Shown one piece after another: positions 13,751-21,723 of a stretch of DNA of 64,000 bases. Below the pieces are notes generated by a model that was not told the DNA's origin, did no database searches, and saw only the letters and a program-made list of their open reading frames with translations. This DNA comes from Prolixibacteraceae bacterium (lineage in GTDB: Bacteria > Bacteroidota > Bacteroidia > Bacteroidales > Prolixibacteraceae), in the NCBI GenBank assembly GCA_018648265.1, contig JABGRN010000002.1, positions 109,223-173,222 of the forward strand. The letters run 5' to 3'. The stretch's first letter is position 1, and each line of letters begins with the position of its first letter. A program made the position numbers and the translations under genes.

Positions 13751-14019
13751 AATGTAAATTCGTTTTGCTAAAATTACTGATTATTGGTTTGAAAAAAAAG
13801 AATTCTATCTTTTTGTGTGGTAGATTCCAAAGGCGAAATGCCCATTCTGGTTCGTAAATATAAAAAAACCTTTCAAGAATTAGCGAATCGTAATTTTTAT
13901 CAAAAGCTACAATATTCAGACAATCTTATCTTATATTAAAATATTATTAATAAAAACATCATTTTATTTTCATTTTAAAAAAATATCTTCATATTTGCAT
14001 GAAATCGTAAGTAAACAAA

Positions 14020-14091
14020 GTGAAATTAAAAATTAACATATCAATTCTTAGCCTTCTTCTAGGTATTATTCTTCTAATCCAGAAGAAATGA
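14020..14091 (+). CDS. Putative leu operon leader peptide (V/M)KLKINISILSLLLGIILLIQKK
   Basis: GTG-initiated 23-codon ORF with 7 Leu and 6 Ile; stop codon overlaps the 5' arm of an antiterminator; followed by an intrinsic terminator before leuA. Confidence 0.75.
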   Translation: MKLKINISILSLLLGIILLIQKK

Positions 14092-14158
14092 GAATGGTGT
14101 GTAATTAAAAGATATTTGTAAAATATAAAGCCATTCTCATAAAGAGGGTGGCTTTTTT
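14088..14158 (+). promoter_or_regulatory. Transcription attenuator: antiterminator (14088-14098 with 14130-14140) versus terminator (14127-14138 with 14144-14155 plus U-run)
   Basis: ATGAGAATGGT pairs with GCCATTCTCAT; alternatively GCCATTCTC pairs with GAGGGTGGC, loop ATAAA, followed by TTTTTT. Confidence 0.82.
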
Positions 14159-14245
14159 CATGCAGGAGAAGTTAGAAGGCAGAAGCTGAAAATTGAATTT
14201 TAATGACAAAAATAGATAATAATAAATAACTAATAATAAATCAAA

Positions 14246-15751
14246 ATGAGTGACAGGCTTTACATTTTCGACACAACTTTAAGGGACGGGGAACAAGTTC
14301 CGGGTTGCCAGTTGAACACAGTAGAAAAAATTGAGGTTGCCAAAGCATTGCAGGATTTGGGAGTTGATGTAATTGAAGCAGGATTCCCAATTTCGAGCCC
14401 CGGCGATTTTGAATCGGTGGTTGAGATTTCGAAAGCGGTTACATGGCCAACTATTTGTTCGTTGACCCGCGCAGTACAAAAAGATATTGACGTTGCTGCC
14501 GAATCGCTAAAATATGCTAAAAAAGGACGAATACACACTGGCATTGGAACTTCGTATTTTCATATTCATCATAAATTAAATTCTAACCCCGATGCAATTC
14601 TTGAACGTGCTGTTGAAGCCGTCAAATATGCAAAAAAGTATGTTGAGGATATTGAGTTTTATGCCGAAGATGCAGGTCGAACTGAGAATGAATATTTAGC
14701 ACGCGTTATTGAAGCTGTAATAAAAGCTGGTGCAACCGTAGTAAATATTCCCGACACAACAGGTTATTGTTTGCCCGAAGAATATGGTGAAAAAATAAAA
14801 TACCTGGTCGATAATGTAAAAGGGATTCATAAAGCGGCTATTTCAACCCACTGCCACAACGATTTAGGAATGGCAACGGCAAACACACTTGCCGGTGTAA
14901 TTAATGGTGCGCGACAAGTGGAAGTTACACTTAATGGAATTGGAGAACGAGCCGGAAACACCTCTTTGGAAGAAATTGTAATGATATTAAAAAGTCGGTA
15001 TGCCGTGTTAAATATCGATACAGGAATAAACACTAAAAAGATTTATGGAACCAGCCGATTGGTTTCTACTTTAATGAATATGCCGGTTCAGCCAAACAAA
15101 GCTATTGTTGGAAGAAATGCATTTGCACACTCATCGGGAATTCATCAGGATGGCGTTTTAAAGAACCGCGAGAATTACGAAATCATGGATCCAACAGATG
15201 TTGGAATCAACGAATCGGCTATTTTACTTACCGCCCGAAGTGGTCGTGCGGCTTTGAAACACCGCTTAGAATTACTTGGATTTGAATTATCAAAAGAGAA
15301 ACTGGACGAAGTTTATGAAGAATTTCTGAATCTGGCCGACAAGAAAAAAGATATCCGCGACGACGATATTGCTTTGCTCGTTGGCGATGCAACTCAGCAG
15401 GAACGTCGTATTAAACTCGATTTTTTGCAAGTAGTTACCGGTAAAAAACTTATGCCCATGGCAACTGTAAGATTGGATATTGCCGGCGAAAAATTTGATG
15501 CAACTTCATCGGGTAACGGACCTGTGGATGCAGCAATAAAAGCTGTGAAGCAGATCATCCACCGCCAGGTTATAATCGAAGAATTTTTGGTGCAGGCTAT
15601 TACACGTGGGAGCGATGACATTGGCAAAGTACACATGCAGGTAGATTACAATAATACAATATTCCATGGTTTTGGCGCAAATACCGATATTATTACCGCC
15701 GCAGTGGAAGCATTTTTAGATGCAATAAATAAATTGCCGGTGGCAAATTGA
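14246..15751 (+). CDS. leuA: 2-isopropylmalate synthase
   Basis: [47 protein letters not shown]-terminal LeuA regulatory domain. Confidence 0.95.
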
Positions 15752-15796: not shown

Positions 15797-17197
15797 ATGG
15801 AAGCAAAAACATTATTTGATAAGATTTGGGATGCTCACGTTGTAGAAAAGGTTGAAGGCGGCCCAAATGTTTTATATATCGACAGGCATCTGATTCACGA
15901 AGTAACAAGTCCGGTTGCATTTCTGGGATTAAAAAACCGTGGATTGAAAGTTTTTCGCCCCGATAAAACAACAGCAACTCCAGATCATAATGTGCCAACA
16001 ATCAACCAGCACCTTTCAATAAAAGACGAACTTTCTCGTCATCAGCTTGAAATGCTGAAAAATAATTGTGCTGAACACGGAATTGTACATCACGATTTAG
16101 GAACAGAAGGACACGGTGTTGTTCATATAATTGGACCAGAAATGGGCCTGACCCAACCGGGAATGACAATTGTTTGTGGCGACAGTCATACTTCTACTCA
16201 CGGTGCTTTTGGCGCTATTGCTTTTGGAATTGGAACCAGCGAAGTAGAAATGGTTTTGGCAAGTCAGTGCATTATGCAGCCAAAACCCAAAAAAATGAAA
16301 ATTACGGTTAATGGCCAGTTAGAAAAAGGGGTAACTGCAAAAGACATTGCGTTGTACATAATTTCAAAAATTTCGACCAGTGGTGGAACCGGGCATTTTA
16401 TAGAGTATGCTGGTTCGGCAATAACAAATCTTTCGATGGAAGGACGAATGACACTTTGCAACCTGAGTATTGAAAGTGGTGCCCGTGGTGGAATGATTGC
16501 TCCTGACGAAACAACCTTCGAATATATTAAAGGGCGACAGTTTGCTCCAAAAGGAGAAGATTGGGAAAAAGCTGTTTCCAGTTGGACCAATTTAAAAACA
16601 GATGAAGGTGCAGTATTTGATACTGAACTTGTTTTCGATGCAGCCGATATTGAACCGATGATTACTTATGGAACAAATCCGGGAATGGGAATTGGAGTTA
16701 CCCAAAATATTCCAACAACTGAAGGAATGGAAGGAAGCGATAAAACAACTTTCGAAAAGTCACTTCAATACATGGGATATTCGGCAGGTGATTTAATGAC
16801 AGGGAAAAAAGTTGATTATGTTTTTCTGGGAAGTTGCACAAACGGAAGAATTGAAGATTTTAGAGAATTTACAAATTTTGTAAAGGGAAAGAAAAAAGCG
16901 ACAAACGTAACTGCATGGTTAGTTCCCGGTTCAAAACAGGTGGAAAACCAGATTCGTGCAGAAGGACTTGTTGAAATTTTGGAAGAAGCAGATTTTGCCT
17001 TGCGTCAACCTGGGTGTTCAGCTTGTTTGGCAATGAACGATGACAAAATTCCAGAAGGCAAATATTCAGTTTCTACATCAAACCGAAATTTTGAAGGCAG
17101 ACAAGGTCCGGGAGCGAGAACATTATTGGCCAGCCCGTTAACTGCGGCAGCGGCGGCTATCTCGGGCGTTATCAGCGATCCAAGAAGAATGTTTTAA
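15797..17197 (+). CDS. leuC: 3-isopropylmalate dehydratase large subunit
   Basis: [52 protein letters not shown]. Confidence 0.97.
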
Positions 17198-17228: not shown

Positions 17229-17585
17229 ATGGACAAGTATGAGTTAAAAAGAAGAACTAAAATTTTTGCACATAAATGTGTAAAAGTTGCAATTTCTCTT
17301 CCTAAAAATAAATTAGGTTCACATATTGAAGGCCAGCTAATAAGATGTTCAACGTCGGTAGCAGCAAACTACAGGGCTGTAAACTTAGCTCATTCAACAG
17401 CTTCTTTTGCTGCAAAATTATCAATAGTTATTGAAGAGGTAGATGAATGTGATTTTTGGATAGAATTTGGGTTAGATGAGAAAATCATTTCAGATGAAAT
17501 TGCAAATCCCTTAATGAAAGAAGCAAAAGAACTCACTGCAATTTTCATTTCATCAAGAAAAACAATACAATCAAGAAAAAAGTAA
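17229..17585 (+). CDS. Four helix bundle protein (23S rRNA-intervening-sequence-protein family)
   Basis: IGGQLIRCSTSVAANYRAV-type motif (HIEGQLIRCSTSVAANYRAVNLAHS) and KLSIVIEEVDECDFWIEF. Confidence 0.88.
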   Translation: MDKYELKRRTKIFAHKCVKVAISLPKNKLGSHIEGQLIRCSTSVAANYRAVNLAHSTASFAAKLSIVIEEVDECDFWIEFGLDEKIISDEIANPLMKEAKELTAIFISSRKTIQSRKK

Positions 17586-17651: not shown

Positions 17652-18239
17652 ATGGCATACGATAAATTTTCAATTATAACATCATCAGCGGTTCCTTTAC
17701 CAATAGAAAATGTAGATACGGATCAAATAATTCCGGCTCGTTTTCTTAAAGCGGTAGAAAGAAAAGGATTTGGTGATAACCTTTTTCGCGATTGGCGTTA
17801 CGAAAAAGATGGAAGTGAAAAAGCAAATTTCCCGTTAAACAATAAAACATATTCTGGTAAAATATTGGTGGGTGCTAAAAATTTCGGAAGTGGTTCGAGC
17901 CGCGAACACGCTGCCTGGGCAATTTACGATTATGGTTTCCGAGTAGTAGTTTCAAGTTTTTTTGCCGATATTTTTAAAGGAAATGCTTTGAACAATGGTC
18001 TTTTACCGGTTGTTGTTACACCTGAATTCCTTCAAAAAATATTTGATGCGATTGAAAACGATTCAAATACAAATTTTGTTGTGGATCTGGAAAAACAGAC
18101 TTTCTCCATTTCAGCAACTGGTGAAATCGTTGATTTTGAAATAAATCAGTATAAAAAACATTGTTTGCAAAACGGGCTCGACGACATTGATTACCTCGTT
18201 GAAATCAAAGATAAGATTGCTGCATTTGAAACAGAATAA
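17652..18239 (+). CDS. leuD: 3-isopropylmalate dehydratase small subunit
   Basis: [37 protein letters not shown]. Confidence 0.96.
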
Positions 18240-18430: not shown

Positions 18431-20014
18431 ATGACAGGAAAAACAGTAGAAATAAATGGAAAACAGCTAACGATTATGGACACCACGCTTCGCGATGGTG
18501 AACAAACATCGGGAGTTTCATTTAGTGAGGGTGAAAAACTCAGTGTGGCAAAAGTGTTGCTTGAAGATGTGAAAATTGACCGGATTGAAATTGCATCGGC
18601 ACGAGTTTCGGAAGGTGAATTTAAAGGTACTCAGCGTGTTATGAAATGGGCAGCCGAAAAAGGCCATCTTGAAAAAGTTGAAGTTTTAGGTTTTGTTGAC
18701 GATAAAATTTCGTTGCAATGGATAGAAGACGCTGGCGGAAAAGTAATAAATCTACTTTGCAAAGGTTCGCATAAACACGTTACCGAACAGTTACGTAAAA
18801 CACCTGATCAGCATGTTGCAGATATTAAAACAGTAATTGCCAATGCCAACGAAATGGGAATTGTAGTTAATATTTATCTTGAAGATTGGTCGAATGGAAT
18901 GCGCAATTCAAAAGATTACGTTCATTTTATGATCTCTAATTTAAAGGATGAAAATATTAAACGAATTATGTTACCCGATACTTTGGGAATTCTCGACCCC
19001 GATGAAGCTTACGATTTCTGTAAAGAGATGATTGAATCGTTTCCTGACGTAGATTTTGATTTTCATGCACACAACGATTACGACCTTGCTATTGCAAATG
19101 TTTTTCATGCAATAAAAGCAGGGATGCGCTGTGTTCACACCACCGTAAATGGTCTTGGCGAACGAGCCGGCAATGCCCCACTTTCGAGTGTAATTGCCAC
19201 CATAAAAGACCATTTGAAAATGAAAACCAACGTAAACGAAAATCAATTAAACAAGGTTTCACGCCTGGTTGAATCCTTTTCAGGAATCAGGATTCCAACA
19301 AATAAACCTCTTGTAGGCGAATTTGTATTTACCCAGTGCAGCGGTATTCATGCCGACGGCGACAGTAAAAATAATCTCTATTTTAATGAATTAATTCCTG
19401 AACGTTTTGGAAGAATAAGGGAATATGCGCTGGGTAAAACATCGGGAAAAGCAAATATTAAAAAGAACCTGGAAGATTTGGGAATTGAATTGGATGCCGA
19501 ATCGTTAAAAAAAGTTACCCAACGAATTATTAATCTTGGAGACAAAAAAGAGACTGTCACAAACGATGATTTACCGTACATAGTTGCTGACGTTTTAGAA
19601 AATGACTTTTTCGAAAATAAAATCAAAGTAATTAACTACTCGGTAAATCATACCATGGGTTTGAGGCCGGTTGCAAATGTCTCTCTCGAAATTGATGGAA
19701 AAAGATATGAAGAGTTCTGCGATGGCGACGGGCAATATAATGCATTTGTAAAGGCACTTCGAAAAATCTACAAAAAGCTGGGTAAACAGTTCCCAAAACT
19801 TATCGATTATGTTGTGACAATTCCACCAGGCGGAAGAACGGATGCTTTAGCTGAAACAGTAATTACATGGAAAAACAGCCGCGAGTTTAAAACAAGGGGC
19901 TTAGATCTAGACCAAAATGCTGCGGCTATTAAAGCTACAATCAGAATGTTAAATATTATTGAAATGGAACATAAACCGGGGTTTTTGGATAAAATATTAA
20001 GTAATATTTCGTGA
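18431..20014 (+). CDS. Alpha-isopropylmalate synthase / citramalate synthase family protein
   Basis: [57 protein letters not shown]; regulatory domain at C-terminus. Confidence 0.88.
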   Translation: MTGKTVEINGKQLTIMDTTLRDGEQTSGVSFSEGEKLSVAKVLLEDVKIDRIEIASARVSEGEFKGTQRVMKWAAEKGHLEKVEVLGFVDDKISLQWIEDAGGKVINLLCKGSHKHVTEQLRKTPDQHVADIKTVIANANEMGIVVNIYLEDWSNGMRNSKDYVHFMISNLKDENIKRIMLPDTLGILDPDEAYDFCKEMIESFPDVDFDFHAHNDYDLAIANVFHAIKAGMRCVHTTVNGLGERAGNAPLSSVIATIKDHLKMKTNVNENQLNKVSRLVESFSGIRIPTNKPLVGEFVFTQCSGIHADGDSKNNLYFNELIPERFGRIREYALGKTSGKANIKKNLEDLGIELDAESLKKVTQRIINLGDKKETVTNDDLPYIVADVLENDFFENKIKVINYSVNHTMGLRPVANVSLEIDGKRYEEFCDGDGQYNAFVKALRKIYKKLGKQFPKLIDYVVTIPPGGRTDALAETVITWKNSREFKTRGLDLDQNAAAIKATIRMLNIIEMEHKPGFLDKILSNIS

Positions 20015-20069: not shown

Positions 20070-20312
20070 ATGAAAGCTATTGAAATTAATACAAAAACGA
20101 ATAATAAAGGCCAGTTAAAGATTGATATACCTTTAAAAAAAAGAAATAAAAATGTAAGGGTATTGATCCTTTTCAGCGATGAAGAAGATTTAATTGATGA
20201 TGATAAAATCTGGCTTTATTCCAACTCTCAAAACCCTTCGTTTAATTTTTTAAGTGAACCGGAAGAAAACATCTATTCGTTAAATGATGGTGAACCATTA
20301 AAAAATGATTAA
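20070..20312 (+). CDS. Small acidic protein, putative antitoxin of a PemK/MazF-like module
   Basis: MKAIEINTKTNNKGQLKID...SFNFLSEPEENIYSLNDGEPLKND; overlaps the start of the PemK-like frame at 20305. Confidence 0.65.
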   Translation: MKAIEINTKTNNKGQLKIDIPLKKRNKNVRVLILFSDEEDLIDDDKIWLYSNSQNPSFNFLSEPEENIYSLNDGEPLKND

Positions 20313-20658
20313 AAATAGTATTGTTCTTGTTCCATTTCCATTTGATGATTTTTCATCATCTAAAGTTAGACCGGTAATTTGTTTAACTCCCGAAATCGGA
20401 AAATTTAAACATATTATTGTTGCTTTTATTTCTAGCAATGTTAAAAATTAGGATGAGTTATTTGATATTCTTATTGAAAAGGAAACAGAGTCATTTGATA
20501 AAACAGGGCTTATTACTGATTCAATCATTAAGTTACATAGGTTAACTACAATACCAAAAAAATTGATAAAAAGAAAACTAGGCGAGGCAAATCCTATCCT
20601 CGTAAAAAAAATAAAATCGAATTTAGTACAACTTTTTGAACTTGATAAAAATATATAA
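20305..20658 (+). pseudogene. PemK/MazF-like toxin interrupted by an in-frame TAG at codon 49 (20449-20451)
   Basis: MIKNSIVLVPFPFDDFSSSKVRPVICLT...VAFISSNVKN*DELFDILIEKETESFDKTGLITDSIIKLHRLTTIPKKLIKRKLGEAN...: same frame continues 68 codons after the TAG to a TAA abutting leuB. Confidence 0.85.
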
Positions 20659-21723
20659 ATGAAACTTAAAATTGCAATCTTACCAGGCGACGGCATTGGA
20701 CCTGAAATAGTTGAACAGGCCATGAAATGTGTCAAAGCTGTTGCCAAAAAATTTAATCACGACATAGAATACGAATACGCGTTAACCGGTGCCACAGCCA
20801 TCGATCAGGTGGGTGATCCCTACCCCGACACAACCCACGAATTATGCATGAAATCGGATGCAGTACTTTTTGGTGCCATTGGCGACCCAAAATTCGATAA
20901 TAATCCAAAGGCTACAGTACGCCCCGAACAAGGTTTGCTTGCAATGCGGAAGAAGCTTGGACTGTATGCAAACATACGCCCGGTTGAAACTTTTGAATCG
21001 TTATTACACAAATCGCCACTTAGACGCGAACTGGTTGAAGGAGCTGATTTTGTTTGTATCCGCGAGTTGACAGGTGGTATTTATTTTGGCGAAAAAGGCA
21101 GAAAAGACAACGGGAATACTGCATTTGATACATGTACCTACGCTCGGGTAGAAATCGAACGTATTCTGAAACTGGCATACGAATTTGCAGGAGAACGCAA
21201 TAAAAAATTAACTGTAGTTGACAAAGCAAACGTATTAGAAAGCTCTCGGCTCTGGAGAGAAGTGGCGCAAGAAATGGAACCCAATTATCCGGATATTAAA
21301 ACAGAATATATGTTTGTTGATAATGCAGCCATGCAAATTATTCAGTGGCCAAAAAATTTCGATGTGATGGTTACCGAAAATATGTTTGGCGATATTTTAA
21401 CCGACGAAGCCAGTGTAATTACAGGTTCACTTGGACTTTTACCATCAGCTTCAATGGGAATTCACACTTCTGTTTTTGAACCTATCCACGGTTCGTACCC
21501 ACAAGCTGCCGGAAAAGACATTGCCAACCCAATTGCAACTATTCTTTCAGCTGCCATGATGTTTGAATATGCCTTCGATTTAAAAGAAGAAGGAAAACTT
21601 ATCCGCGATGCTGTGGCAGCTTCAATGGCCGAAGGTTTTGTTACCGAGGATATTGCTGAAGAGCAAGCTTATAAAACTTCAGAGGTTGGGGATTGGATCG
21701 CAAATTGGATTGAAAAAAATTAA
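20659..21723 (+). CDS. leuB: 3-isopropylmalate dehydrogenase
   Basis: [55 protein letters not shown]. Confidence 0.97.

Follow-up and report, generated by a model that had tools for sequence, protein, structure and literature searches.

A predicted leader-peptide attenuator with leucine and isoleucine codons ahead of leuA in Prolixibacteraceae, and similar leaders before other amino-acid operons of Bacteroidales

Main finding

The leu operon found in the window, by which we mean the whole 64,000-nucleotide stretch of Prolixibacteraceae DNA analysed here, is very probably preceded by a ribosome-mediated transcription attenuator that would sense charged Leu- and Ile-tRNA ahead of leuA. The mechanism itself is classical and belongs to the textbooks; the leu attenuator is real and well supported as a prediction, and the wider family to which it points is the more interesting part, since the trick is barely documented in this bacterial group and is re-used there before other amino-acid genes. 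In the gut and in many waters Bacteroidota are the dominant group; they mostly initiate translation without Shine-Dalgarno sequences, and their control of amino-acid synthesis has been little studied. A Leu/Ile attenuator needs a ribosome close behind the polymerase, and its presence would therefore imply coupling of transcription and translation in Bacteroidota.

A leader ORF and two competing helices lie between a probable promoter and leuA

The features on which the argument rests are as follows, with genes named from their best protein-family matches.

13990..13997, forward strand: probable promoter -7 element CATATTTG, of the Bacteroidota type TAnnTTTG with the first base off
14020..14091, forward strand: ORF of the leader peptide, opening with GTG, 23 codons and a TGA stop (14089-14091), peptide VKLKINISILSLLLGIILLIQKK
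14044..14079, forward strand: regulatory codon run ILSLLLGIILLI; with a stall up to CTA 14074 the antiterminator is preferred in the full-leader fold
14054..14087, forward strand: segment 1:2 hairpin (TTCTTCT...AGAAGAA) inside the leader ORF, from minimum-energy folds
14088..14098, forward strand: segment 2, ATGAGAATGGT, 5' arm of the antiterminator, overlapping the TGA stop
14130..14140, forward strand: segment 3, GCCATTCTCAT, the arm shared by the two helices, 3' in the antiterminator and 5' in the terminator
14127..14158, forward strand: intrinsic terminator, stem AAAGCCATTCTC/GAGGGTGGCTTT followed by a U tract to 14158
14246..15751, forward strand: leuA, 2-isopropylmalate synthase (NF002086, 751 bits; TIGR00973, 694 bits; both above cut-off)
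15797..17197, forward strand: leuC (TIGR00170, 658 bits, above cut-off)
17652..18239, forward strand: leuD (TIGR00171, 191 bits, above cut-off)
18431..20014, forward strand: cimA-like, citramalate synthase-like (best match NF042433 CimA, 659 bits, below its cut-off of 950)
20659..21723, forward strand: leuB (TIGR00169, 458 bits, above cut-off)

An earlier, sequence-only reading of this DNA had described a GTG-started ORF of 23 codons with seven Leu and six Ile, and we found it at exactly those coordinates; Val is absent from the peptide save for the GTG start codon. When the leader ORF was shuffled, at least 13 Leu and Ile codons were reached in 5 of 20,000 shuffles. Most relatives start the leader with ATG, GTG being common only to the window and locus L010. 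The same reading had called the missing Shine-Dalgarno sequence notable, a remark that we do not follow, as Bacteroidota normally lack such sequences and its absence is unremarkable.

Segments 2 and 3 pair over 11 bp, one of them G-U, with a predicted energy of -12.7 kcal/mol, and the pairing of 14088-14098 with 14130-14140 that had been proposed is thereby exact to the base. In the competing arrangement segment 3 pairs with 14144-14155 (segment 4) at -15.9 kcal/mol, and T's occupy 14153-14158, so that the terminator stem and the six Ts claimed for it are confirmed. The region 14010-14165 folds at -41.8 kcal/mol, compared with -22.8 +/- 3.0 kcal/mol for 200 shuffles (z -6.3). The window terminator is missing from the list of a terminator-consensus tool, probably because its stem extends into the T tract; both the hairpin and the T tract can be seen clearly in the sequence as well as in the predicted structure. 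Folded at full length and without a ribosome, the window leader forms the terminator together with the segment 1:2 hairpin, which is a possible protector or pause hairpin on evidence from folding that is weaker than for the other parts.

From the position of the -7 element, the transcript would be expected to start near 14003-14007. A motif of the form NAnnTTTG lies 24-33 nt 5' of the leader start in 22 of the 24 loci of the relatives' set described below. The sequence-only reading had named a leuA start downstream of 14158 as an observation that would speak against it; scanning by consensus only, we found no -7-like element between terminator and leuA (14159-14245), and the conserved one lies upstream of the leader. 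The attenuator sits between this consensus-predicted promoter and the first gene of the matching operon, with 87 nt from the U tract to leuA. Gene order leuACD-cimA-leuB is identical in 10 of 10 relatives examined, and the attenuator probably controls all of leuA-leuC-leuD-cimA-like-leuB, across gaps of 454 nt and 644 nt. The first gap, between leuC and leuD, holds a gene for a 23S rRNA-intervening sequence protein (PF05635, window 17229-17585). The space between cimA and leuB contains a remnant of two ORFs (window 20070-20451), the second of which has a weak PemK/MazF match (18.4 bits, below cut-off) and is shortened by a stop; judged from its sequence, the remnant looks like a decayed toxin-antitoxin pair.

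Ribosome position is predicted to select the fold

We infer the following course of events, from transcription start through stalling and a kinetic choice of fold to termination. RNA polymerase would start near 14005 and a ribosome would start translating the leader at GTG 14020. A shortage of Leu- or Ile-tRNA would make the ribosome stall within 14044-14079 and leave segment 2 free, which could then pair with segment 3 before segment 4 is made, and polymerase would read through into leuA-leuC-leuD-cimA-like-leuB. If Leu and Ile were plentiful, the ribosome would reach the stop and cover segment 2, and segments 3 and 4 would form the terminator. Codon identity, rare-codon use, footprint geometry and the match between codons and downstream pathway argue for ribosome stalling, and on these grounds the ribosome-mediated attenuation put forward in the sequence-only reading holds up as a prediction.

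For the geometry, we used a footprint model in which the edge of the ribosome was assumed to lie 13-14 nt past the first base of the A-site codon. In the window, modelled stalls at selected codons from 14059 up to CTA 14074 made the antiterminator the preferred structure of the whole leader, if by only about 1 kcal/mol, and a modelled ribosome at ATC 14077 or at the stop gave the terminator. The Leu/Ile run ends, in this model, where a stalled ribosome would start covering the antiterminator. Ribosome position is accordingly modelled as the deciding factor, a stall being predicted to free segment 2 and a ribosome at the stop to cover it.

At full length and at equilibrium the terminator was still favoured in most relatives with a stalled ribosome in place, which implies that the choice of fold would have to be kinetic, made during transcription, as it is in the trp operon. 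Full-length equilibrium folding with a masked ribosome did not discriminate and was replaced by folding up to segment 3. With this procedure regulatory codons occupied 173 of 222 permissive positions in leuA leaders, as against 5 of the remaining 66, and in the ilvD leaders introduced below the corresponding figures were 355/387 and 7/153. The ilvD leaders of the window's genus have a displaced stop, and in them the switch point and the last regulatory codon shift together. When no ribosome was placed on the RNA and folding ended with segment 3, the antiterminator formed in 11 of 24 leuA leaders, the window's among them, so that an untranslated leader would not be clearly shut off; a modelled ribosome at the stop left the antiterminator free in 2 of the 24.

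The leader ORF and both helices are conserved in relatives

A scan with the LeuA protein yielded 80 named loci, the nearest of them in Draconibacterium, Mariniphaga, Maribellus and other Prolixibacteraceae. Our leuA leader set (n = 24) consists of the window and 23 loci of Prolixibacteraceae and near relatives, which all have an ORF of 20-23 codons ending at a TGA within segment 2 and whose peptides resemble the pattern MKLNINISILSLILGILLLLRKD. In locus L004 the elements are present but the ORF finishes in a different frame; locus L013 is incomplete. In more distant Bacteroidales (Bacteroides, Prevotella, Tannerella, Parabacteroides and others) we found the same arrangement in a different sequence, here called type B, with segment 2 GGAAGTGAG, segment 3 CTCACTTCC and terminator CCTTTCTCAC/GTGTGAAAGG. 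Some leuA loci are without a leader, and in several of those leuA follows a gene that, read from its sequence, is ilvC-like.

The coding signal is strong. In 15 leaders of equal length, synonymous codon differences amount to 49.6% in frame and to 7.1% and 2.8% in the other frames, and mismatch rates at the three codon positions of codons 7-19 are 0.28, 0.05 and 0.47; 90% of leader codon differences are synonymous or stay within L/I/V/M. By these comparisons the leader ORF is conserved as protein.

Pairing was examined in an alignment of 52 leuA and ilvD sequences, which are related, so that the counts are not independent of shared descent. In the antiterminator 97.5% of cells are paired with 16 double changes, and in the terminator 98.6% with 34; for either helix 0 of 500 shuffles reached that level, and slid controls scored far lower than both true helices. 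The double changes of the antiterminator all fall in one pair, for which the third partner in segment 4 varies too: the states of the three-segment column are T-A-T in 34 sequences, A-T-A/G in 13, G-T-A in three and broken in two. As read from this alignment, antiterminator and terminator are mutually exclusive, share one arm and are both kept by compensatory change. The check in relatives that had been suggested alongside the original claim, for a leader ORF and alternating stems, thus found both, and covariation in the type B sequences of other Bacteroidales adds to the support for the helices.

Codon content favours sensing of leucine and isoleucine

Leu makes up 25.6% and Ile 26.6% of the codons of the 24 leuA leaders, Val only about 1.0-1.4%, and VV never occurs. 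Nearly 90% of the Leu codons are CTN, and CTA alone accounts for 24% of Leu codons in the leaders but for 3% in the leuA genes that these leaders precede (chi2 181, p 3e-37). This strong shift of the Leu codons to the otherwise rare CTA and CTC, set beside Ile codons that are mostly the common ATT, is what one would expect if the leader answered to leucine only and the Ile codons were spacers, served the RNA fold or simply made a hydrophobic nascent peptide. We consider this unlikely, though deserving of attention: Ile is as frequent as Leu and occupies the same permissive positions, a cimA-like gene is in the operon of each of the ten relatives, and Val, which a purely hydrophobic filler could equally contain, hardly occurs.

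Sensing of both amino acids, the reading that we prefer, also agrees with what the operon makes. LeuB, LeuC and LeuD act in the citramalate route to isoleucine as well, so the leu unit would feed both leucine and isoleucine. Ile sensing would fit the cimA-like gene, which all ten operons contain and which hence offers no contrast case; because the cimA-like protein scores below the CimA cut-off, its part in Ile sensing is one that we only infer. Judged by codon usage, we are less sure that Ile is sensed than that Leu is, since rare codons are not used for Ile.

Not only the codon class but also the sequence of the peptide is conserved, as would also be seen if the leader arrested its own ribosome on sensing free amino acid inside it and not on starvation for charged tRNA. 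We regard this as very improbable, given that Leu/Ile swaps are common, that codon differences so largely remain synonymous or within L/I/V/M, and that the rare-codon bias points to decoding speed.

Relation to known leaders

Rfam covariance models gave no match to the element at the gathering threshold and nothing credible at E-values up to 10; the best leader family was Phe_leader, with 15.9 bits against a gathering threshold of 55. Among its closest analogues is the enterobacterial leu operon leader leuL, which we take to be the Leu_leader of Rfam (RF00512). Both place a Leu-rich leader peptide with rare CTA codons before leuA and set an antiterminator against a terminator, rare regulatory codons being a hallmark of the enterobacterial leader. 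The window element differs in lacking an Rfam match, in its RNA sequence, in its occurrence in Bacteroidota, in having Ile as frequent as Leu and in a stop that lies inside segment 2.

Bacteroid-trp RNA is, to judge from its name and general knowledge, presumably linked to trp genes. It has been described as a candidate cis-regulatory leader in Bacteroidetes (RF01692; Weinberg 2010, PMC2864571) and does not match the window element. In Flavobacterium psychrophilum, the main text of one study gives clues for leader-peptide attenuation before amino-acid operons and conserved 5' elements of hisG and pheA (PMC9723704), and for B. thetaiotaomicron that of another mentions sORFs reminiscent of leader peptides (PMC7366714); those passages contain no mention of this leu element, of its alternative helices or of a relation to ilvD. 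The ilv-leu operon of Staphylococcus aureus is reported to have a leucine-rich attenuator peptide before branched-chain genes (PMC5794164); by this description, on which the comparison rests, it differs in belonging to Firmicutes and in being combined with CodY control. The ilvGMEDA and ilvB leaders of enterobacteria and the ilvBNC leader of Corynebacterium (PMC11857589, PMC10272879) encode multivalent branched-chain peptides, which the ilvD attenuators described below resemble in logic; here, by contrast, leuA and ilvD leaders are similar in segments 2-3-4 and different in codons, and the window-type leuA leader omits Val. In the openly readable main texts, we found no account of a leu attenuator of this kind in Bacteroidota.

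Look-alike attenuators carry codons that match the downstream pathway

With a loose cut-off, E-values up to 0.05, a covariance model of the switch (R1) matched 114 of 120 family genomes; at 0.001 it matched 30 of 198 genomes of the order. Second matches within genomes are similar attenuators ahead of other genes. Those before ilvD carry Val/Ile/Leu codons, with Val at 18.3% and VV in 39 of 44 leaders, mostly as GTC and GTG, two codons that the window's ORFs seldom use; such an attenuator is also present in the window's own genome, at G000:C23:4395-4466 on the reverse strand (locus L139), with the leader MKLFSTYILVVLVVILGFSGKG (Val/Leu/Ile). Before hisG, His leaders of the HYGHHH type with antiterminator and terminator occur in 10 of 10 genomes (L192-L201, the own genome being L193), and thrA, checked as a further member, has no leader in 8 of 8 genomes. 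Order-wide matches before leuA and ilvD follow the same codon-to-pathway rule. Taken together, leaders that lack Val (leuA), contain it (ilvD) or carry His (hisG) amount to a natural codon-swap experiment, and from these sequence comparisons we consider pathway-matched codons the best evidence that the signal resides in the peptide's codons and not in a ligand of the RNA.

This bears on two further explanations. A riboswitch or a protein-bound leader that controls the terminator, with an incidental ORF, would share the layout of a structured leader plus terminator; it is exceedingly improbable in view of the strong coding selection in the leader ORF, codon identities that track the downstream pathway, and a search that revealed neither a conserved aptamer-like domain nor an Rfam match near threshold. 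That there is no switch, only a constitutive terminator or small RNA preceded by an ORF that is hydrophobic by chance, is scarcely credible: GCC...GGC terminators are common in the genome and give weak matches, yet segment 2 shows compensatory change as well as the terminator, and coding selection and pathway-matched codons are found at related loci.

Returning to attenuation by a translating ribosome, we tentatively propose as quite possible, if somewhat short of likely, that the leader-peptide attenuators of Bacteroidales form a modular family, with a similar switch (TGAG..TGG / GCC.TTCTC / GAG..GGC-U) before leuA, ilvD, ilvB, an aminotransferase gene and perhaps hisG and gltB, which would have spread by duplication, been re-tuned by codon exchange and sometimes come to stand in tandem; the leuA version would read Leu and Ile and omit Val as its operon feeds the leucine and citramalate-isoleucine routes. 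The related attenuators may have a common ancestor or may have converged on one terminator type, GCC...GGC terminators being frequent in this genome.

A weak E-value by itself was not counted as evidence of an attenuator: among the weak matches that R1 and R2 gave in the window's genome (L085, L140, L141, L143 and others), most look like ordinary terminators without a leader ORF. Attenuator-like elements also stand before a gene that, read from sequence, is gltB-like (glutamate synthase; L235, L241, L249), where the short ORFs (e.g. MKTKHTSFANKHAYKHNKIVQ) are not Glu- or Gln-rich. In other genera, Ala/Val-rich leaders such as MTAKTFHIILVEAAAAIACS precede a PLP aminotransferase (L126, L134, L135, L136, L182), and no close copy was found in the window's genome; each of the four loci that were read completely has them in tandem. 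Their codons suggest that the enzyme forms alanine or valine, and Ala/Val for the L126 aminotransferase illustrates how leader codons could let the product of a poorly annotated operon be read. Tandem attenuators, each with its own leader peptide, are likewise present before ilvD at L128:476-710, L133:3886-4099 and L137:445-659, one example being MKNLAIIINVILLVVVINPAK followed by MKHISTYILVVVIVVLLGFC.
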